From Ciceribacter sichuanensis (GTDB lineage Bacteria > Pseudomonadota > Alphaproteobacteria > Rhizobiales > Rhizobiaceae), in contig NZ_JAMXLX010000001.1 of NCBI RefSeq assembly GCF_024055605.1, positions 310,001 through 374,000 of the forward strand: DNA of 64,000 bases, read 5' to 3'. The notes below the pieces were generated by a model. That model was not told where the DNA came from and ran no database searches. It was given only the letters and a program-made list of their open reading frames with translations. Below are positions 1,099 through 33,775 of the stretch, one piece after another; the first letter of the stretch is position 1; every line of letters starts with the position of its first letter. The translations under genes were made by a program, and so were the position numbers.

Positions 1099-1847
<749 letters not shown>

Positions 1848-1854
<7 letters not shown>

Positions 1855-2915
1855 GCGCGCCTCCGGTTGGTGAAGATCAGCGAGAAGAAGAAGGGAACGC
1901 CCACGAGCGCGGTGATGACCCCGATCGGCAGGATCGCGCCGGGGATCAGCGTCTTCGAGACGACGGAGGTGACAGAGAGCAGCAGCGCGCCGCAGATCAG
2001 CGATCCCGGCAGGAAGAAGCGCTGGTCTTCGCCGACCACCATGCGGGCGATATGCGGACCGACGAGCCCGATGAAGCCGATGGTGCCGACGAAGGAGACG
2101 GGAATGGCCGCCAGCAGGCTGACGAGCATCATGGTCTCCAGCCGGAGCCGCTTGACGTTGACGCCGAAGGATGCGGCCTTGTCGTCGCCGAGACGCAGCG
2201 CCGTCAGCGCCCAGGCATTGCGCGCGAAAAGCGGCACGCAGACAACCAGCACGACGCCGGTAACCGCAACCTTGGTCCATGTCGCCTTGGTGAGCGAACC
2301 CATGGTCCAGAACACGACCGCGGCAAGCGCCTGTTCTGAAGCGAGGTATTCGAGCAGCGAGAGCAGGGCGTTGAAGGTGAAGACCAGCGCGATGCCGAGC
2401 AGCACGATGGTCTCCACCGTGACTCCGCGCAGCGTCGAGACGCCGTAGATGAACAGCGACGCAGCCATCGCCATCACAAAGGCATTGATCGGGATCATAA
2501 ACTGCACTGCGGTCGGGAAGATTGCGACGCCCGCCACGAGCCCGAGGGCTGCGCCGAAGCCGGCGGCGGCGGAAATGCCGAGCGTGAACGGGCTCGCCAG
2601 CGGATTGGCGAGGATCGTCTGCATCTGCGCGCCCGCAAGCGAAAGACAGGCGCCGACGGTGACCGCCATCAGCGCCACCGGCATGCGGATGTCCCAGATC
2701 ACCACCCGCAGCTGGTCGCCCGCGGAGGATGGCCACAGGATGGTGGAAACGACCTCGTTCAGCGTATAGCGGGCCGGGCCAAGCGCCATATCGGCGGCGA
2801 CGCTGACGAGCAATGCGGCGACCATCATTCCGAGGATCGCCAGACGCCGGGCGGACATCGCCCGGTACTGAACGCGTCCCTCGGCTGAGGGCAATGTTTC
2901 GGTGGCAACGGCCAT
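1848..2915 (-). CDS. Iron-complex ABC transporter permease (FecCD family)
   Basis: Inner-membrane permease of 355 residues, the usual FecCD length, with about nine or ten hydrophobic spans. Family segments seen are ILANPLASPFTLGIS, GFIGLVGPHIARM and LIPGAILPIGVITALVG. Only one permease gene is present, so the channel is presumably a homodimer. The start at 2915 (MAVATETLPS) shares one base with the stop of the binding-protein gene (TGATG). The substrate is probably a ferric chelate or heme-like iron complex, inferred from the iron box upstream of the operon. Confidence 0.93.
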
Positions 2916-4048
2916 CAGTTGGTTCCCTTCTCGAGCGAGACGAAATAGCCGGGCTTGTAGGCGATCGGCAGGAACTTCTCGTGGAATTCGCGGAAAGTCG
3001 CTTCCGGGTCCAGATCGGCGAAGAGCTCCGGATGGAACCACTTGGCGAACTGCTGGATCGGCACGAACTCGTAAGGCGCGCCGTAGAACTGGTGCCAGAC
3101 GGCGTGAACGTCCTTGTTCTCCACGGCTTTCAGTCCGGAAAAGCCGGTGCGCTCCACCAGCGCCTGCAGCTTTTCGCGCGCCGCCTGAGGATCGGCGCCG
3201 CGGCCGACATGGACGAAGCGATTGGTCTTGGATTCGGCCGCCCAGTTGGAGCCGGTGGCGATGTAGTGGTCCGGGTTCTGGACGATCAGCTGTTCGATGC
3301 TGATATCGCCGAAGGTCGTCTTGATGACGTCCGCGGCGATGTTGTGGCCGCCGGCGCGTTCGACCATCTCGCCGAAATTGGCCGGGCCGAAACTGCGGCA
3401 GCAACCGTTCTCGGCGTCGTTGCCGGGAGCGCGCTCGATGAAGACCTTCGGACGCACGAGATCGGGCTGGCTGGCGATGCGGTCGGTCACGCGGGCGATC
3501 TGCGCCCTGCGGAATGCGATGAACTCCTGTGCCTTTTCCTCGCTGCCGAAGATCTTGCCGAGAAGCTCGATCGACTTTTCGCTGTTCTTTGCCGGGTTCG
3601 CGCGGAAATCGACATAGACGACCTTGATGCCGGCAGCCGCAGCCTTGTCTTCCAGCCCGCTCTCCTCCGCACCCTTCTGCGACTCGATGTTGAGCGTCAG
3701 CACGTCGGGCGAGAGGGCGATTGCAGATTCCAGGCTGAAGGTGCCGTTCGGCACGTAGCCGAAGCGCGGCAGGGTTTCGAGCGCGGGGAAGCGTTCCACA
3801 TAGGCCGCATAGCTGTCCGGGTCCTTGGTCAGGAAATCGTCACGCCAGCCGACGATGCGGTCGAGCATATGTTCGCCCGTGAGTGCGGCGATGACATGGA
3901 TCTGCCGCGCCTCTCCGACGAGAACGCGCTTCGCCGGCAGGTCGAGTTCGATCGTCCTGCCGGCGACGTCGGTGATGGTCTCTGCAAGGGCAGGGCTGCC
4001 CAGAAATGGAAGAAGGGCGATTATCGCCCGCGCGTATCTGGCAATCAT
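2915..4048 (-). CDS. Iron ABC transporter substrate-binding protein, copy B
   Basis: Secreted class III binding protein of 377 residues with an N-terminal signal peptide ending near SPALA. It is clearly a paralogue of the neighbouring copy (4108-5247): both share GWRDDF, a CC-x-SFG-x2-NFG-x-MVE block, ATGSNW or VTGSNW, and HAVWHQFY or HAIWHQFY. The vicinal cysteines (ENGCCRSFG) are unusual for this class and are kept in both copies. Two binding proteins feeding one permease suggest two related ligands, or division of labour under different iron supply. Its stop is coupled to the permease start. Confidence 0.9.
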   Translation of the reverse strand: MIARYARAIIALLPFLGSPALAETITDVAGRTIELDLPAKRVLVGEARQIHVIAALTGEHMLDRIVGWRDDFLTKDPDSYAAYVERFPALETLPRFGYVPNGTFSLESAIALSPDVLTLNIESQKGAEESGLEDKAAAAGIKVVYVDFRANPAKNSEKSIELLGKIFGSEEKAQEFIAFRRAQIARVTDRIASQPDLVRPKVFIERAPGNDAENGCCRSFGPANFGEMVERAGGHNIAADVIKTTFGDISIEQLIVQNPDHYIATGSNWAAESKTNRFVHVGRGADPQAAREKLQALVERTGFSGLKAVENKDVHAVWHQFYGAPYEFVPIQQFAKWFHPELFADLDPEATFREFHEKFLPIAYKPGYFVSLEKGTN

Positions 4049-4107
4049 TCGTATCGTCCTTGGCGAAGCAGCCGGCGGATGGTTCCCGCCGGCCTTTCCG
4101 TTCTGGT

Positions 4108-5247
4108 TTAGAGGCCGGCCTTCAGCGAGGCGAAGTAACCGGTGTGATAGGCAACCGGCAGGAAGCGCTCATGCAGTTCCTTGAAGGTGGCTTCCGGATC
4201 GAGATCGGTAAACAGGTCCGGATGCAGCCACTTCGCGATCTGCTGCACGGCGACGAACTGGTAGGGGCTGTTGTAGAACTGGTGCCAGATGGCGTGGACA
4301 TTGCCCTCGGTAACCGCCTTGATGCCGGTGAAGGCCGGGCGCTTCATCAGGGCCGCGAGTTTTTCCTCGGCCTTGGCCTTGTCTGCGCCGGGGCCGACGC
4401 CCACCCAGGCGCCGCCCGGAACGTAGAGTTCCCAGTTGGAGCCCGTGACGATCACCTGATCCGGGTTGGACGCGATGATCTGCTCCGGATTGACCGCACC
4501 GAAGGTGCCGGGGATGATGTCCTTGGCCATGTTGATGCCGCCGGCGAGTTCGACCATCTTGCCGAAGTTCTCGTTGCCGAAGGACATGCAGCAATCTTCG
4601 GAATAACCGCCGGCGCGTTCCATGAACACCACCGGCTTTTTCAGGTCGCCGGCCTTGGCGAGCGTATCGGTGACACGGGCGAGTTGCTCGTCGTGGAACT
4701 TCACGAATTCCTCGGCGCGCGCTTCCTTGCCGAACAGCTTGCCGATGATGCGCATGGATTCATCGGTGTGCTGCATCGGCTTTTCGCGGAAGTCGATATA
4801 GACCAGCGGAATGCCGACCTTGGCGAGTTTTTCGATATAGCCGCTTTCCTCGGTCGCGGACTTCGCCTCCGTGTTCATGATGATGACGTCCGGCTTCAGC
4901 GCGACTGCCTGCTCGATGTCGAACGTGCCGTCCTTCATGCCGCCGAAGGTCGGGATCTTCGCCATTTCCGGGAATTTCTGGAGATAGATGTTGTAGCCGT
5001 CGAGGTCGGCCTTCTGGAAGTCGTCGCGCCAGCCGACGACGCGCTTGAACGGTGCATCCGTGTCGAGAGCGCCGGTGAAATAGATCTGCCGTCCCTCGCC
5101 GAGGATCACCCGTTCCACCGGCACGCTGACCTCGACGTCACGACCGGTGATATCCTTGATCTTGATCGTTTCTCCGGCTTCGGCCATACCCGAAAAAAGC
5201 GCGAGCGAAATCGTGGCGGCGGTGGCCACCCTGTTCAAATGGAGCAC
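4108..5247 (-). CDS. Iron ABC transporter substrate-binding protein, copy A
   Basis: First gene of the iron operon; 379 residues with a signal peptide (cleavage likely after GMAEA). Same fold and motifs as copy B: RQIYFTGAL, GWRDDF, SEDCCMSFGNENFGKMVE, VTGSNWE, HAIWHQFY, and a shared C-terminal ending of the form LHERFLPVAYHTGYFASL. The two copies look roughly half identical by eye, so the duplication is not recent. A 59-base gap separates them, long enough for its own ribosome-binding site. Ligand unknown; the promoter carries iron-response boxes. Confidence 0.9.
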   Translation of the reverse strand: MLHLNRVATAATISLALFSGMAEAGETIKIKDITGRDVEVSVPVERVILGEGRQIYFTGALDTDAPFKRVVGWRDDFQKADLDGYNIYLQKFPEMAKIPTFGGMKDGTFDIEQAVALKPDVIIMNTEAKSATEESGYIEKLAKVGIPLVYIDFREKPMQHTDESMRIIGKLFGKEARAEEFVKFHDEQLARVTDTLAKAGDLKKPVVFMERAGGYSEDCCMSFGNENFGKMVELAGGINMAKDIIPGTFGAVNPEQIIASNPDQVIVTGSNWELYVPGGAWVGVGPGADKAKAEEKLAALMKRPAFTGIKAVTEGNVHAIWHQFYNSPYQFVAVQQIAKWLHPDLFTDLDPEATFKELHERFLPVAYHTGYFASLKAGL

Positions 5248-5293
5248 GTCGTCCTCTCCTGTGCAGTGGAATTCGAAGCGATCTATTATTTTA

Positions 5294-5308
5294 TGACTTT
5301 TATAGTCA
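5294..5308. promoter_or_regulatory. Candidate RirA iron-responsive (IRO) box
   Basis: TGACTTTTATAGTCA fits the TGA-N9-TCA palindrome reported for RirA targets in rhizobia and agrobacteria. It sits 46 bases before the start of binding protein copy A and 56 bases before the divergent methyltransferase, so it could control both. Confidence 0.72.
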
Positions 5309-21737: not shown

Positions 21738-22487
21738 TCAGGCTTCGAAGCGGCGGCGGAAATAGCCGCTCAATGCGCCGAGCAGCGCCCAGAAGAAAAG
21801 GCTGGTCATCGTTGCGACCACCACGAAGCGATGGGACATCGCTTCCGGCGCGAGCGCATGCTCGCCTTCCGGCGGCACGGGTGCGCCAATGATATGCGGC
21901 AGGGCGATCAGCACGATTGCGAGAGCCGCAGCCCAGGGCTTGCGCTGGAAGAACAGCAGGCCGAGGCCGGCGGCCGTCGCTGCCGCGGTGCCGATCCACC
22001 AGACCTGACGCTCGAAGAGCGGGGCGGCCGGTGTGCCCGGAAGTTCCGGATGCAGGCCGAAGCCGGGCGCCAGCATGAATACGACGAAACCGCAAAGGCC
22101 CCATATGAGGCCGTGCCGCCAGTCGCTCTCCTTGCCGGAAATCTGCATCAGGCCGTTGATCACCAGCGCAAAGCCGATGGCCGTCAGCACATTGGCAGCG
22201 AAGGTGTAGGCGTTGCGCTCGAAGCCGTCTGCGGGCGCCCAGGCCTCCGGGTCGTGATGATGGTCATCTGCCTCGGTGGTCGTTGCGGCGGCGGTGCTGG
22301 CGTGGTCGTGGCCTTCCGTGGCCGCGCCGGCGTCATGGCTGTGGCCTTCGTCGGCGCCACCGGTCTCGAAGACCTCTGCGGCGAGGATAAGCGGCGTCGT
22401 GCCGAGAAACTGCGCGAGCGTCACAGCCGTCCCGGCGATCAGCCCGACCAGCACCGAAGTGAAGACGAGCGAACGTAAAACTGACAT
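21738..22487 (-). CDS. cbtA: Cobalt transporter subunit CbtA
   Basis: 249 residues, five to six membrane spans, and a long histidine-rich hydrophilic loop after the first span (EGHSHD, EGHDH, DDHHHD between about 47 and 82), suited to binding Co2+. LAPGFGLHPELPGTPAA is a CbtA hallmark. CbtA with CbtB is a predicted cobalt importer found beside cobalamin riboswitches in alphaproteobacteria. It lies downstream of cbtB, but a 104-bp repeat separates the two genes. Confidence 0.9.
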   Translation of the reverse strand: MSVLRSLVFTSVLVGLIAGTAVTLAQFLGTTPLILAAEVFETGGADEGHSHDAGAATEGHDHASTAAATTTEADDHHHDPEAWAPADGFERNAYTFAANVLTAIGFALVINGLMQISGKESDWRHGLIWGLCGFVVFMLAPGFGLHPELPGTPAAPLFERQVWWIGTAAATAAGLGLLFFQRKPWAAALAIVLIALPHIIGAPVPPEGEHALAPEAMSHRFVVVATMTSLFFWALLGALSGYFRRRFEA

Positions 22488-22778: not shown

Positions 22779-22910
22779 GTTTCCCTCCGAACGATGACGA
22801 TGATGCCCGACGATCGAAGGGTGGAAAACGGGGCGAAGGTCGGTGGGGACAAGAAAATCCGGCGACCACGTCCTGTTTCCCGGACACCCCGTCCGGCAGG
22901 CGACAACAGG

Positions 22911-23097
22911 CGATGGCAGGTCTCCTGGCTTGCGGGTCATGACCCCTGAACTGCCTTCCCGGATCGCTCCAGTGGCGTTGTCGTTCAGGCGTTCGCCGCT
23001 CACAGTTGCGGGGGCAGCCACGAATCGAGCCCCGTCAGGGTCGTCCCTATCGTGTTCCCTATTAATCCCCGAAGCGCCGCTTCTGGGGAACCATCGG
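22911..23097 (-). promoter_or_regulatory. Cobalamin riboswitch
   Basis: Read on the minus strand it shows GGTTCCCC...GGGGATTAATAGGGAAC, then the conserved core GTGGCTGCCCCCGCAACTG, GAGCGGCGAACGCC, GCCACTGG and GGGAAGGC, and the closing AAGCCAGGAGACCTGCC. These are the fixed blocks of the B12 riboswitch in the right order. It should shut off cbtBA when adenosylcobalamin is plentiful. Confidence 0.95.
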
Positions 23098-23182
23098 GAG
23101 CCACTATCGGAGGCTGCACAGGCCGTGTCAATCGCCAGTCATGCAACAGGTGCGAAATTCCAGGGGGTGAGGCGGTTCTACG

Positions 23183-28988: not shown

Positions 28989-29498
28989 TCAGAGAACCTT
29001 CGCCACGTAGATGTCGCCTGCCGGCAGCGGCAGAAGACGTTCGGCCATCTCGACCTTCAGCGCCTCGTGGCGAGCGGTTTCCTCGTCCGTCTTGTCCTTC
29101 TTCGCGCCGAGCGTGACGAACTCCTCGCGCACATGGCCAGGCTTGATCCTCACCTCGACAGTCGTGCCCCTGTAGGTGAAGCGCCAGACATAGGGGCCGG
29201 GTGGATCGGAAATCACATCCTTGCCGCCGAGGCTTCGGTCGATGGTCAGCCGCCCGTCGGTCAAGGCCCGCGTCGCCATCTCGATGGCGTCACGACCGCC
29301 GGGGCCGGGAAAGGCGGTGACCACGGTGATTTCGCGGCGTTCCGGCGGCGTATCGGAGAGGAGGGGGAAGGCCGCCTGCATCGCCTTCAGCCCATGCACC
29401 ACGCCGCCCGGAAATCCGCCGCCGTGATAGGTGTTGATATCGGTGAAGGTGAAGGTGAGGTCCTTGCCGCCTTCGCGGACGGTGATCGTGTCATGCAT
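28989..29498 (-). CDS. FmdE-like protein lacking the metal cysteines (last gene of iron operon 2)
   Basis: 169 residues, cytoplasmic. I see a faint but ordered likeness to the FmdE family: YHGGGFPGGVVHGLKAM in place of HGHLCPG-x-ALGYRM, and GGRDAIEMATRALTDGRL in place of C-x2-DAIQ-x-TG-x-T-GKGNL, followed by VWRFTYRGTTVEVRI. Both family cysteines are absent. The gene overlaps the 436-residue gene by eight bases and is the last of five genes behind an iron box, so it probably acts in handling the imported iron compound. Function unknown. Confidence 0.6.
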   Translation of the reverse strand: MHDTITVREGGKDLTFTFTDINTYHGGGFPGGVVHGLKAMQAAFPLLSDTPPERREITVVTAFPGPGGRDAIEMATRALTDGRLTIDRSLGGKDVISDPPGPYVWRFTYRGTTVEVRIKPGHVREEFVTLGAKKDKTDEETARHEALKVEMAERLLPLPAGDIYVAKVL

Positions 29499-30801
29499 GG
29501 GTGTAGGCCTTCAGATTGGGAATGAACCGGTCGAGGAAACGGGTCGTCGCCGGCATGAAATGCGAACCGTGATGGAACATCGGGTCGAGCGAGGAGAGGA
29601 TCATCCGTCCGGGCGTCGAGACGTCATCGACATAGAGAATGGCGCGGCCTTCTCCGTCGCGGGCGAGAACCTCAGCGCCTTCCGGCGGTACGAACCAGCC
29701 GTGCAGGTGCCATGTCACCTCCTTGTCGCCGATGTCCTTCATCAGCGGATGGGAAGAGGCCGCATCGGTTACCCTCACGCCGAGATCTGCCTCGGGGTCC
29801 AGCCACCACCACCAGTTCGTCGGCGTCTCGGTGAAATCGATGGCCGGGAGCCAGAGGTCGGAATGGCTTTCGCCGAGCGCGACGACCGTGCCGCCGGCGG
29901 CGAGATGCCGGGCGATGATGTCCTTCTGATCGATCATTCGTTGCGCCGGCGTGCGGCAGGGCACCCAGAGCACGTCGTCGGGTCTAAGCACCTCGGCGAG
30001 TTCCTCCGGCGTCGTCACCACGTCGAAATACCCGGCATAGCGAGGCCCTTCGAGGCTGCGGATATTGTAGTAGGTGCCGGAGGAGGGGGTGACGATGCGC
30101 CGGCCGATCTTGCCCGAGGATTTCGGGCCGGTATAGGCCTCCGCCTCTGCCAGTGGCAACTTGTCGGCAGGCCTTGCCGGGTTTGTCGGCCACGGATCGA
30201 GGCATGGGCCACCATTGACCCAGTCGAGGATGCGGGCGGAAAGTTCCGGGGCAAGTCCCCATTCCAGCCCCATGCTGGAAAGATCGTTGCCGGCATGGGA
30301 GAAGATGCGCCCGCCACGCGTCCGCGCCCAGACCCAGTCGACCGGCACCCGGGCCTGTCCCAGCCCGTTGATGGCGACGGCACCCTCCGGCAGGGGATTG
30401 CAGCCGCGGCCATAGAAGCCGGCAACGCCCTTGTTGGCTTCCAGCTTCTTCAGGTCGAGGCCGTCATAGAGCGGATGCGGGTTGATGGTCGAGAGGTCGA
30501 AATCCGCTCGCTTCGGAGCGTCGATCGGCTGGTACTGTGCCATCCCGTCCACCAGTGGACGCACGACATGGCCGTTGAAGAACCAGCGTCCGCCGGCGTC
30601 GAGAAAGGCTTCGAGCGCGGGCTTCAGCGCCAGAAGGGCGTTCTGGTCGAGCTGCTGTCCGGTGATGAGGCCCGTGTGGGCGGCAAGCACCTCCGCCGTC
30701 AGATCCTTCTGTTCCACGATGACGACATCGCCGCGCGCCGCCGCGTCCAGAATGCCCGGCGACGGTTTGCCATAGGCGGATTTCAGATAGATCGTGCTCA
30801 T
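29491..30801 (-). CDS. Two-domain protein of unknown function in iron operon 2
   Basis: 436 residues, no signal peptide or membrane span. It looks like two similar halves (about 20-200 and 260-430): FLDAGGRWFFNG matches HLAAGGTVVALG, NPHPLYDG matches SSHPLMKD, and GGRIFSHAGNDLSSMG matches PGRMILSSLDPMFHHG. The layout recalls glutamine-amidotransferase-like or ThuA-like folds, but no nucleophile elbow is clear. It overlaps the ATPase gene by four bases. A role in processing the imported iron chelate is inferred from context only. Confidence 0.72.
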   Translation of the reverse strand: MSTIYLKSAYGKPSPGILDAAARGDVVIVEQKDLTAEVLAAHTGLITGQQLDQNALLALKPALEAFLDAGGRWFFNGHVVRPLVDGMAQYQPIDAPKRADFDLSTINPHPLYDGLDLKKLEANKGVAGFYGRGCNPLPEGAVAINGLGQARVPVDWVWARTRGGRIFSHAGNDLSSMGLEWGLAPELSARILDWVNGGPCLDPWPTNPARPADKLPLAEAEAYTGPKSSGKIGRRIVTPSSGTYYNIRSLEGPRYAGYFDVVTTPEELAEVLRPDDVLWVPCRTPAQRMIDQKDIIARHLAAGGTVVALGESHSDLWLPAIDFTETPTNWWWWLDPEADLGVRVTDAASSHPLMKDIGDKEVTWHLHGWFVPPEGAEVLARDGEGRAILYVDDVSTPGRMILSSLDPMFHHGSHFMPATTRFLDRFIPNLKAYTHA

Positions 30802-31556
30802 GCTGCCTCAATTCCGGCGAATGCGGGCAGGATTGCCCGGCGTGTTTCGCCAACTGGTCCGGCGACATCGACCCAGCGCATCGGGACGCCGTAAAGCTCG
30901 GTCAGCCGCTCCGGCTCGATCATGTCGGCAACGGTGCCGTGGACCTCACGTCCGCCCGGCATCATCATCAACACGTCGTCGGCGGCGGCGAGTGCGTGGT
31001 TCGGGTCGTGGGTGGTGAAGATGATGGCGTAGTTGCGCCGAAGGCGCAGCGCATCCAGCAGTTCCAGGGTCTTTGCCTGATTGCCGAGGTCGAGCGCCGA
31101 GGTCGGCTCGTCGAATACCAGTGCCTGCGATCCTGTGGCGAGCGCCCGGGCAATCAGCACCAGCTGGCGCTGGCCTCCCGACATTCGGTCGTAGCGCAGG
31201 CCGGCAAGTGCCGAAGCGCCGACATCCGCCAGTGCTGCCTCTGCCGCGTCCCTGTCCTCGCGGCGCGGCTGGCCGAACAGGCCGAGATGGGCCGCGCGGC
31301 CCATCACCACGACATCGAGGCCGGAAAGCCTTGCCTGCGATGCCCCATGCTGGGGCACATAACCCGCGACCTTCGGCGCGTGACGGCTGCCGTCGGCAAG
31401 CCGCTGGAAACCGAGAAGCGCTCTCAGCAGCGTGGTCTTGCCACGACCGTTGGGGCCGAGGATGGCGAGCGAACGGCCGACGGGAACCGAGAAGCTGATA
31501 TTGCGGAAAAGCGTGCGCTGGCCGAAGGTGACCGAAGCGTTTTCGAGGCCGATCAT
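30798..31556 (-). CDS. Iron-complex ABC transporter ATP-binding protein, operon 2
   Basis: 252 residues. Walker A GPNGRGKT (34-41), signature MSGGQ (125-129), Walker B ALVFDEP (145-151) and the switch histidine in FTTHDPNHAL are intact. It pairs with the FecCD permease upstream, which it overlaps by four bases. Sequence differs well from the ATPase at 1099-1854, so the two systems are not a recent duplication. Confidence 0.92.
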   Translation of the reverse strand: MIGLENASVTFGQRTLFRNISFSVPVGRSLAILGPNGRGKTTLLRALLGFQRLADGSRHAPKVAGYVPQHGASQARLSGLDVVVMGRAAHLGLFGQPRREDRDAAEAALADVGASALAGLRYDRMSGGQRQLVLIARALATGSQALVFDEPTSALDLGNQAKTLELLDALRLRRNYAIIFTTHDPNHALAAADDVLMMMPGGREVHGTVADMIEPERLTELYGVPMRWVDVAGPVGETRRAILPAFAGIEAA

Positions 31557-32605
31557 GGACGGTTCGCCTCCCTGAAGTGACGACGCAGAAGCAGGCCGAA
31601 AACCGGAGCGCCGATCAGCGCGGTCAGCACGCCGAGCGGGATTTCGGCCGCTGTCAGCGTGCGGGCCAGCGTGTCGATGAAGGTGAGATAGGCGGCTCCG
31701 AGAAGGGCCGATGCCGGGATCAGCGCCCGGTGATCCTCGCCGACGAGGATGCGCGCGGCATGCGGCACCACGAGGCCGATCCAGCCGACGATGCCGGCGA
31801 CCGCGACCGATGTGCCGGTCATCAGCGATATGGCGGCGAAGACGATCCAGCGCTCGCGGTCGGGATTGACGCCGAGCGAACGTGCCTCGCTGTCTTCCAG
31901 CGCCAAAAGGTTCAGCCGGTAGCGCAGGAGCCACACGGCCAGAAGCCCGAGCGCCATGCCCGGAACGGCAAGGCCGAGCCTTGCCCATGTGGCGGTCGAG
32001 AACGAACCCATCAACCAGTAGACGATGGCCGGCAGCGACGTGTTCGGATCGGCGACGAACTGCACGATGGAAACCAGCGCGGCAAACATCGCGCCGACCA
32101 CCATGCCCGACAGGATGACGGTGATGATCTCGGTGCGTCCGTTGATCCGGGCGAGAGCACCGACGAGGATGAGCGCGGCAAGCCCGAGAATGAACGACAT
32201 GCCGAGCAGAACGATGCCGGAATAGCCGAAAAGGATCGCAAGCGCGCCACCGAAGGCCGCACCCTGGCTGATGCCGAGCACCTGCGGCGAAACGAGGGGA
32301 TTACGGAAGACGCCCTGAAGCGCCGCGCCGCCAACGGCGAGTGCCGCGCCGGACAGCGCCGCGAGCAAGACCCGTGGCAGGCGCACCAGCAGCACGATGC
32401 GCTCGTCCATCTCGTCCGGGATCGTGCCGGGGTCGAGTGCCCCGTTGACGAGGATTTCCGCGATCCGGGGCACGGAGACGGAAAACCGGCCGGCCCCGAT
32501 GGAAAACAGCATGGTCGCGACCAGTCCCGCGATCATCAGTCCGAAGACGCCGATCCTCAGGACGGAGACACCGCTCCGCACCGGTTCAGTCGCGACCGCG
32601 CTCAT
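31553..32605 (-). CDS. Iron-complex ABC transporter permease (FecCD family), operon 2
   Basis: 350 residues with nine to ten spans and the family segments LPRVLLAALSGAALAVGGAALQGVFRNPL (the usual start of the core), VGWIGLVVPHAARIL and AEIPLGVLTALIGAPVF. The start MSAVATEP at 32605 comes one base after the binding-protein stop. Single permease, so a homodimeric channel. Confidence 0.93.
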   Translation of the reverse strand: MSAVATEPVRSGVSVLRIGVFGLMIAGLVATMLFSIGAGRFSVSVPRIAEILVNGALDPGTIPDEMDERIVLLVRLPRVLLAALSGAALAVGGAALQGVFRNPLVSPQVLGISQGAAFGGALAILFGYSGIVLLGMSFILGLAALILVGALARINGRTEIITVILSGMVVGAMFAALVSIVQFVADPNTSLPAIVYWLMGSFSTATWARLGLAVPGMALGLLAVWLLRYRLNLLALEDSEARSLGVNPDRERWIVFAAISLMTGTSVAVAGIVGWIGLVVPHAARILVGEDHRALIPASALLGAAYLTFIDTLARTLTAAEIPLGVLTALIGAPVFGLLLRRHFREANRP

Positions 32606-32606
32606 T

Positions 32607-33695
32607 TCACTTGGCCTTGAACTGGGCGTAGGCGGTTTCCGCGCCCTGCATGTCCATCCACAGGATGCCGTCGATATCGGCATCGGTGAGGTCGTAGTTG
32701 TAGAGGGTCTTGTAGGCCTTCTTCATCTCACCGCGCAGGTCGTAGGCGAACACGTCGGGATGCAGCAGGTTGGCGAGCCACATCCAGGTCAACGGGCTTT
32801 CCTGGCTCGGTGGGTCCCAGCGATAGCCGCCGAGCGGCATCTTGTAGACCTTGCGCTCCTTGGCGGCCTTGGTGAGCGACAGGATCGGATTGTTATAGAT
32901 CCGGTCGATCCCGAGCTTGGCTTCGAAGCTGTTCAGCAGGATCACGTCGGGGTTCCATTCGGCGATCTGCTCCGGGCTGATCGTCGTGCCGTTGCCCTGC
33001 ACGTCGGCGGAGACGTTCACGCCACCGACAAGGTCGATGTACCAGGCGTTGTAATTGCCCTTGTTGCCCGATGCCGTCAGGTTTTCGAGCGCGCGACCGA
33101 GATAGAGCACCTTCGGCTTCTTGTCGGCGGGAATGTCCCTGGCCTTGGCAGCCATTTCGTTGGCCACCGTATCGCGCCAGCCATTGATCAGGGCGGCACG
33201 CTCCGGTTTGCCGAGCGCGGTCGCCACCATGTTGTGGTAGTAACGGGTCTTTTCCTCGGTGCCGTAGGAGATCATCGCGACGTTGAGGCCGGCATTGCTG
33301 ATCGGGTCGACCAGATCGGCGCCGTAATCCGCCCACTGAATCACGAGATCGGGATGGGTGGCAGCTAGTTCCTCGATATTGGGAATGAAGTTCGGCGCGG
33401 TGATGTCGGAGGGAATATCCTTCGCTTGCGGGAAGATCCTGCCGAGAACGCCTTCCACAATCGCCGATTTCGCCGTCGGGTTCATGCCGACGAGCTTGGA
33501 GGTGCCGCCATCCATGGCAATGATCGTCGATGCCATCGGGATCGGGATCGAGGCGATGCGGTCGGCCGGCCTTTGAAGCGTGACGGTGCGATCCGCCTGG
33601 TCGACGATGGTGATCGGATCGGCGGAAGCCGTTGCGGCAAAGCCGATTGCCGCGACCGAAACGGCAAGGCGGGTGAGCAGGCGGCGAGGAAGCAT
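32607..33695 (-). CDS. Iron ABC transporter substrate-binding protein, operon 2
   Basis: First gene of iron operon 2; 362 residues with a signal peptide (cleavage after ATASA). Class III binding-protein features: DQADRTVTLQRPADRI after cleavage, IQWADYGADLVD, and PDVILLNSF in the C-terminal lobe. It lacks the vicinal cysteines of the copies at 2915-5247. YRWDPPSQESPLTWMW near the C-terminus is seen in binding proteins for ferric chelates of this branch. The start MLPRRLLTRL at 33695 was chosen for the signal peptide; the frame is open upstream. Confidence 0.9.
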   Translation of the reverse strand: MLPRRLLTRLAVSVAAIGFAATASADPITIVDQADRTVTLQRPADRIASIPIPMASTIIAMDGGTSKLVGMNPTAKSAIVEGVLGRIFPQAKDIPSDITAPNFIPNIEELAATHPDLVIQWADYGADLVDPISNAGLNVAMISYGTEEKTRYYHNMVATALGKPERAALINGWRDTVANEMAAKARDIPADKKPKVLYLGRALENLTASGNKGNYNAWYIDLVGGVNVSADVQGNGTTISPEQIAEWNPDVILLNSFEAKLGIDRIYNNPILSLTKAAKERKVYKMPLGGYRWDPPSQESPLTWMWLANLLHPDVFAYDLRGEMKKAYKTLYNYDLTDADIDGILWMDMQGAETAYAQFKAK

Positions 33696-33760
33696 CGGGA
33701 GAACCTTTCGAAAAGTGGACAATGACTGTCTTGATTTTCCGATACCTCGGATTGCAAACA

Positions 33761-33775
33761 TGAATAAAAGTGTCA
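33761..33775. promoter_or_regulatory. Candidate RirA IRO box of iron operon 2
   Basis: TGAATAAAAGTGTCA fits TGA-N9-TCA, within a strongly AT-rich promoter region, 65 bases before the binding-protein start. Second such box in the window, again in front of an iron-type ABC operon. Confidence 0.66.

Follow-up and report, generated by a model that had tools for sequence, protein, structure and literature searches.

Ferric-siderophore importers of the FecCD/BtuCD type under RirA/IRO control are built from a binding protein, a FecCD permease and an ATPase, with a TGA-N9-TCA box and a RirA encoded in the genome, and, to our knowledge, the intracellular release of iron from chelates is known for few enzyme types only. 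Here we describe a five-gene operon of Ciceribacter sichuanensis that lies within a 64,000-nucleotide stretch of contig NZ_JAMXLX010000001.1 (positions 310,001 to 374,000; the whole stretch is called the window, and its own numbering is used below). The operon has all of these parts but differs from the known importers in two added cytoplasmic genes, in whose products, of 436 and 169 amino acids (aa), no known siderophore-releasing reductase or esterase domain was found (Pfam and NCBIfam, E up to 1). The importer and its control are of known kinds, and the cytoplasmic pair may be undescribed, as far as an incomplete literature search shows: within its coverage we found no paper joining FmdE with an ABC transporter and a siderophore, none on the FmdE family and none joining carbon-phosphorus (C-P) lyase with FecCD.

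We tentatively read the locus as a RirA-controlled operon in which uptake of a ferric chelate is coupled to its handling, or that of its ligand, by the pair in the cytoplasm, a full model that we regard as a serious possibility, a little short of probable. Its first part, ferric-chelate import under RirA control, is well supported by protein family, box, regulator and gene neighbourhood; we infer iron as the cargo, the class of chelate, an action of the pair on the chelate once it is imported, and the chemistry involved. The pair may plausibly release or modify an iron chelate, and the handling of other metals or catabolism of the ligand is possible too.

The operon and its importer

The operon consists of five open reading frames (ORFs), all open, which run on the minus strand from 33695 to 28989 and are preceded by the box:

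33761–33775, unstranded: IRO-type box TGA-N9-TCA, probable RirA operator (from sequence and conservation)
32607–33695, minus strand: gene of the periplasmic binding protein, 362 aa (PF01497, E 9.5e-19)
31553–32605, minus strand: gene of the FecCD-type permease, 350 aa (PF01032, E 2.5e-87)
30798–31556, minus strand: gene of the ABC ATPase, 252 aa (PF00005, E 1.6e-21)
29491–30801, minus strand: gene of the 436-aa protein, predicted to hold two homologous GATase1/ThuA-like domains at residues about 1–211 and 230–436 (model and domain comparison)
28989–29498, minus strand: gene of the 169-aa protein, predicted FmdE fold (match of the model to solved structures)

Successive genes are separated by a gap of 1 base and then overlap by 4, 4 and 8 bases (the first two ATGs being at 33695 and 32605), with the end of the ATPase gene overlapping the start of the gene for the 436-aa protein. 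This layout bears out an earlier interpretation made from the letters and ORFs of the window (the sequence-only reading), which had claimed a single unit of overlapping or touching genes. The iron-type importer that it had also claimed was recovered as well, since Peripla_BP_2, FecCD and ABC_tran match adjacent genes at 68.2, 293.3 and 77.8 bits, against Pfam cut-offs of 27.5, 26.5 and 25; judged by its sequence, the importer is of the ordinary FecCD type. Among the NCBIfam matches listed for the operon proteins, none attains its curated cut-off (for the ATPase, the best 25 of 192 families), so that the cargo cannot be named by homology.

The iron box and RirA

The TGA-N9-TCA box lies 65 bases 5' of the ATG of the binding-protein gene. 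By itself the bare pattern is at chance level, since 20 copies were observed in the window against 13.1 expected and 7 of 100 shuffles attain 20; its significance comes through conservation in relatives rather than through the window count. We therefore turn to 60 related upstream regions, namely those of the binding-protein ORFs labelled by the caller in loci L023–L093 (numbers of this form denote single loci), from which the window and L085, with too little upstream, were left out and outside which fall the loci without a labelled binding-protein ORF. The box is present in 35 of the 60, against shuffled means that sum to about 5, the 60 rows not being independent because paralogues, related species and near-copies are among them. 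Broken down by identity of the binding protein, it occurs in 14 of 18 regions at 75% or more, 9 of 25 at 60–75% and 12 of 17 below 60% (shuffled means 1.7, 1.9 and 1.4). The 39 boxes in these regions have an AT-rich core, with a value of 0.71, where boxes of this kind in those loci as a whole give 0.44, and some boxes (such as those at L094 and in the window operon) overlap the 5' end of an ORF as called. Because of this conservation, we reject a chance box as the full explanation.

The regulator is encoded in the genome (L122; NF008886, 270.7 bits against a cut-off of 193). In the accessible parts of two reports, the IRO box is given as TGA-N9-TCA (PMC6386902, PMC8822346), and according to the second, of which the same limit holds, 5 of 10 RirA-bound peaks contain it (PMC8822346), so that the box is neither needed nor sufficient. 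Across the genome, 26 sites carry the box in its AT-core form, while a control with the reversed pattern gave 0 forward and 1 reverse. Seven of the 25 sites other than that of the window operon, picked by the caller as intergenic-looking, were traced to their neighbouring genes. Four of the seven lie by iron-type genes, three by TonB receptors (L094, L106, L119) and one by another Peripla_BP_2/FecB-type protein (L095), so that 5 of 8 box sites adjoin iron-uptake genes when the window operon is counted. The iron box of the sequence-only reading is thus present, kept across many relatives, matched by a genomic RirA and accompanied by further boxes at iron-type genes, and control of the operon by iron through RirA and the IRO box is likely on these grounds. 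The far sides of L094 and L095 hold an AraC-type regulator and a methyltransferase, and 1 of the 10 proteins scanned beside box sites was without any match. As a separate observation, an AT-core IRO-type box stands just 5' of a fumarase C gene at L103 (G000:C12:204743); we take this fumarase to be the iron-independent type.

Predicted folds of the two cytoplasmic proteins

The sequence-only reading had treated the two soluble proteins as unknown, matching neither the reductases nor the esterases usual at this place, a view not supported by structure prediction, by which both can be classified by fold. The 436-aa protein of the window matches 0 Pfam families at E up to 1; among its relatives, 9 of 48 match DUF4159 (best 1.8e-4) and 2 of 48 match ThuA. 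Its model (pLDDT, the predicted local distance difference test, 89.9) gave structural neighbours for the C domain by VIA-align, with 3soz at Z 14.7, 2gk3 at 14.4, 3rht at 14.2 and 1t0b at 13.5, all GATase1/ThuA-like proteins, and further down the acylase 8i5a at Z 12.1 over 202 residues, presumably a relative of dimethylformamidase. The N domain was barely probed in VIA-align, where it returned IFT52 rows alone (5fmr at Z 13.9, 5fms at 12.2), and it is counted as GATase1/ThuA-like because it aligns with the C domain as a homologue (hhalign 97%, E 8.4e-11). As modelled, the 436-aa protein is therefore made of two homologous GATase1/ThuA-like domains. In many relatives, including those of Devosia, Neorhizobium, Methylocystis and Methylosinus, the two domains are two separate genes. 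Two sequence matches of the 436-aa profile to solved structures, at E about 1, were taken as chance.

The protein departs from the GATase1/ThuA-like proteins that it resembles in being a tandem duplicate, in its operon context and in its conserved residues. The nucleophile elbows, as placed from predicted strands, read FFNGH and ALGES, where the Cys of a class I glutamine amidotransferase is not seen; a conserved Cys282 sits elsewhere. Near-invariant positions include H351, H365, H367, D392, D406 and H410 in the C domain and D52, H109, D155 and H169 in the N domain, a conserved His/Asp set that marks a putative metal site. A ThuA-like domain is shared with dimethylformamidase, in which, by the accessible part of its description, this domain holds a mononuclear iron and the enzyme cuts an amide (PMC7686228). 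The likeness lies in the ThuA-like domain; the iron ligands given there are two Tyr and one Glu (PMC7686228, same part). The 436-aa type was found in 9 of 199 genomes of the order, the source genome included.

The 169-aa protein matches PF02663 (FmdE) at E 0.0017 and 18.8 bits, under the gathering score of 22.9, and the family matches 8 of 28 members of the 169-aa family at E up to 0.5 (best 0.00079). Its model (pLDDT 96.0) is matched by Foldseek to 2glz at 7.2e-7, and VIA-align places it with the FmdE structures 2glz (Z 13.0), 3d00 (11.8) and 2gvi (11.1), all other rows being at or below 4.1; the protein, going by the model, has the FmdE fold. Unlike the FmdE family proper, it falls under the Pfam cut-off, is tied to importers and not to formylmethanofuran dehydrogenase, and does not carry the GHxCP motif, the alignment showing HGGGFP at that place against GHACP in L138–L140. 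This replacement makes it unlikely that the canonical FmdE metal site is retained. The weak profile matches L138–L140, which carry the GHACP of ordinary FmdE proteins, were not counted as members; L138 passes the PF02663 cut-off with 25.3 bits and neighbours a response-regulator/kinase protein. A PF02663 search of the protein's own genome gave no match, which shows that this model misses the 169-aa branch, and a sequence search of solved structures with the FmdE-like profile gave no match either. The 169-aa profile matches 8 of 398 genomes of the phylum, 4 of them strongly, with the source genome among the matches. A distant FmdE-like gene at L136:3319-6878 stands beside HypD, AIRS-type and SIS-domain genes.

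Neighbourhoods of relatives and a possible role of the pair

We compared 94 loci by tblastn within 5.5 kb; because they were collected for their similarity to the window proteins, the linkage counts are biased towards the window operon type, and the ORFs in them come from a crude caller, with starts often too early and some genes hidden under overlapping frames. The sequence-only reading had named homologues unlinked to iron transporters as one observation that would speak against it, and here the outcome is mixed: 69 of the 94 loci have a FecCD-type importer nearby, in its favour, while 9 have an Opp/Nik-type importer, 4 an Ssu-type importer (L142 having both FecCD and Ssu), and the 14 operons of the Neorhizobium and Rhizobium leguminosarum type lack the box. 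In Methylocystis and Methylosinus, TonB siderophore receptors and membrane proteins of the PepSY type surround the split-form operon, joined by IucA/IucC genes and HemP in the former and by flavodoxin and FecR in the latter, and in Cupriavidus a TonB receptor ORF lies directly 5' of the binding-protein gene.

We suggest that the pair acts on the imported complex because of its frequent linkage to importers, its folds and its conserved residues, and the exchange with C-P lyase described below suggests the ligand as its target. In the preferred reading, RirA would leave the box when iron is scarce, and the five genes would be expressed together. A ferric chelate, possibly a siderophore of the carboxylate type, would then be moved from the periplasm into the cytoplasm by the binding protein, FecCD permease and ATPase, and the FmdE-fold and two-domain GATase-like proteins would take over the complex there. 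The GATase-like protein may use its conserved His/Asp cluster to bind the metal-ligand complex and may weaken or cut the ligand, with the FmdE-like protein as a partner or metal carrier. If the pair does free iron from a chelate, it would constitute a further release route, rare but scattered.

Several observations weigh against this reading. The box is found in 0 of 14 operons of the Neorhizobium and Rhizobium leguminosarum type (L064, L065, L068, L069, L072, L074–L077, L079–L082, L087), and three of the seven traced box sites lie by genes that are not plainly of iron uptake, encoding fumarase C (L103), a Peripla_BP_6 protein (L112) and an M24 peptidase (L098). No TonB receptor was found among the 5 neighbouring genes scanned on each side of the operon, and the putative metal site of the 436-aa protein is read from its His/Asp conservation pattern. 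No importer was found near 13 of the 94 loci; among these, L138–L140 are without either protein at the thresholds used, L086 has an Opp-type cluster just past the distance limit, and L029 is cut by a contig end. Finally, the Opp/Nik- and Ssu-type importers beside homologues of the pair, together with a HupE/UreJ gene (HupE_UreJ_2, L083) and a NicO gene (L086) next to such homologues, suggest that iron may not be the general cargo. Apart from this, ten of the loci L064–L087 adjoin an extra ORF cluster which, by eye, resembles a transporter plus a 689-aa enzyme.

Alternatively, the pair could initiate catabolism of the imported ligand, which would serve as a source of P, N or C while the metal is incidental. 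We consider this unlikely, though it draws on a branch of paralogous operons in which phn genes for C-P lyase follow an importer of the same type and an FmdE-like gene. The gene order LysR, binding protein, FecCD permease, ATPase, FmdE-like gene, phnG, H, I, J and two ATPases, which we read as phnK and phnL, is found in Rhizobium ZX09 and on Klebsiella and E. coli plasmids, and the same order, judged by clusters, in L035, L037, L040, L041 and L056. In Labrenzia the order is visible up to phnH, with PhnJ elsewhere on the plasmid and a GATase-like gene between the LysR gene and the importer; the Proteus operon is seen only from the ATPase on, because the record begins there. No GATase-like gene is present in the Klebsiella and E. 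coli stretches. In the tree, the FmdE-like proteins from 6 phn-linked operons fall into one group (100/98), long branches elsewhere in it being unsure. PhnJ lies nearby in 9 of the 94 loci, and the CX2CX21C motif is present in 6 of the 10 loci with a PhnJ match; the three enterobacterial PhnJ proteins have a 19-residue cysteine spacing, as against 21 in the rhizobial form, read in L150 (14520-15332), to which the other two are 100% matches, and the match in L034 (43%) is cut by a contig end. Against ligand catabolism stand the box and the siderophore neighbourhoods, which point to iron, and the window operon itself, which is without phn or any other catabolic gene: PhnJ has no match among its five products, and the PhnJ of the source genome is encoded on another contig (52% identical).

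Operons of this FecCD-importer/FmdE-like/C-P lyase kind were seen at L035, L037, L040, L041, L056, L088, L089, L093, L150 and L153, several of them plasmid-borne and with LysR where the stretch extends far enough. The five stretches that carry annotation (L088, L089, L093, L150, L153) show no annotated PhnCDE-type importer. The stretch from the first to the last ATPase occurs in 3 of 5426 E. coli genomes, always on plasmids.

A broader version of the preferred reading, which we advance as a rather doubtful extension, treats the pair as a portable module of the cytoplasm, able to work with three unrelated types of ABC importer, that takes metal-ligand complexes apart by acting on the ligand. 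In one mobile branch, C-P lyase would stand in for the GATase-like part or be added to it, and metal phosphonates would thereby come in through a siderophore-type importer and not through PhnCDE. If so, the two proteins may amount to a portable toolkit with which imported chelates are processed, and the C-P lyase branch would link iron-type import to phosphonate use on mobile plasmids.

It appears improbable to us that the pair is a general metal-chelate module whose metal (nickel, cobalt, zinc or iron) is set by the importer, so that the cargo here may not be iron even under iron control. The Opp/Nik-type links do suggest that other metals are handled elsewhere, and genes of the HupE/UreJ and NicO kinds, which adjoin the pair at L083 and L086, are usually tied to nickel or cobalt; at the window operon, the box and, more widely, the TonB receptors point to iron, and no cobalamin riboswitch scored above the gathering threshold at 16 related loci searched. 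A cobalt/B12 system was rejected on this last result. The window does contain a cobalamin riboswitch (22898-23110, minus strand), which lies upstream of the gene for a cobalt transporter of the CbtA type (21741-22487).

That the pair regulates the importer, for example by binding its ATPase, and does not act on the cargo is very improbable. In favour of this reading are the frequent linkage to three unrelated ABC importer types and an ATPase gene that overlaps the one after it; against it stand enzyme- and binding-type folds with conserved His/Asp clusters and FmdE-like proteins that have no recognised importer nearby (L135, L136, L156).

The Ssu-type cases comprise Azospirillum, Chelatococcus and an E. 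coli plasmid with two FmdE-like genes, which flank an Ssu/Nrt-type ABC importer (L092:9953-13430). Elsewhere in the window, a second iron-type uptake region at 1102-5308 encodes two Peripla_BP_2 proteins and an ABC ATPase, with a TGA-N9-TCA at 5294-5308.

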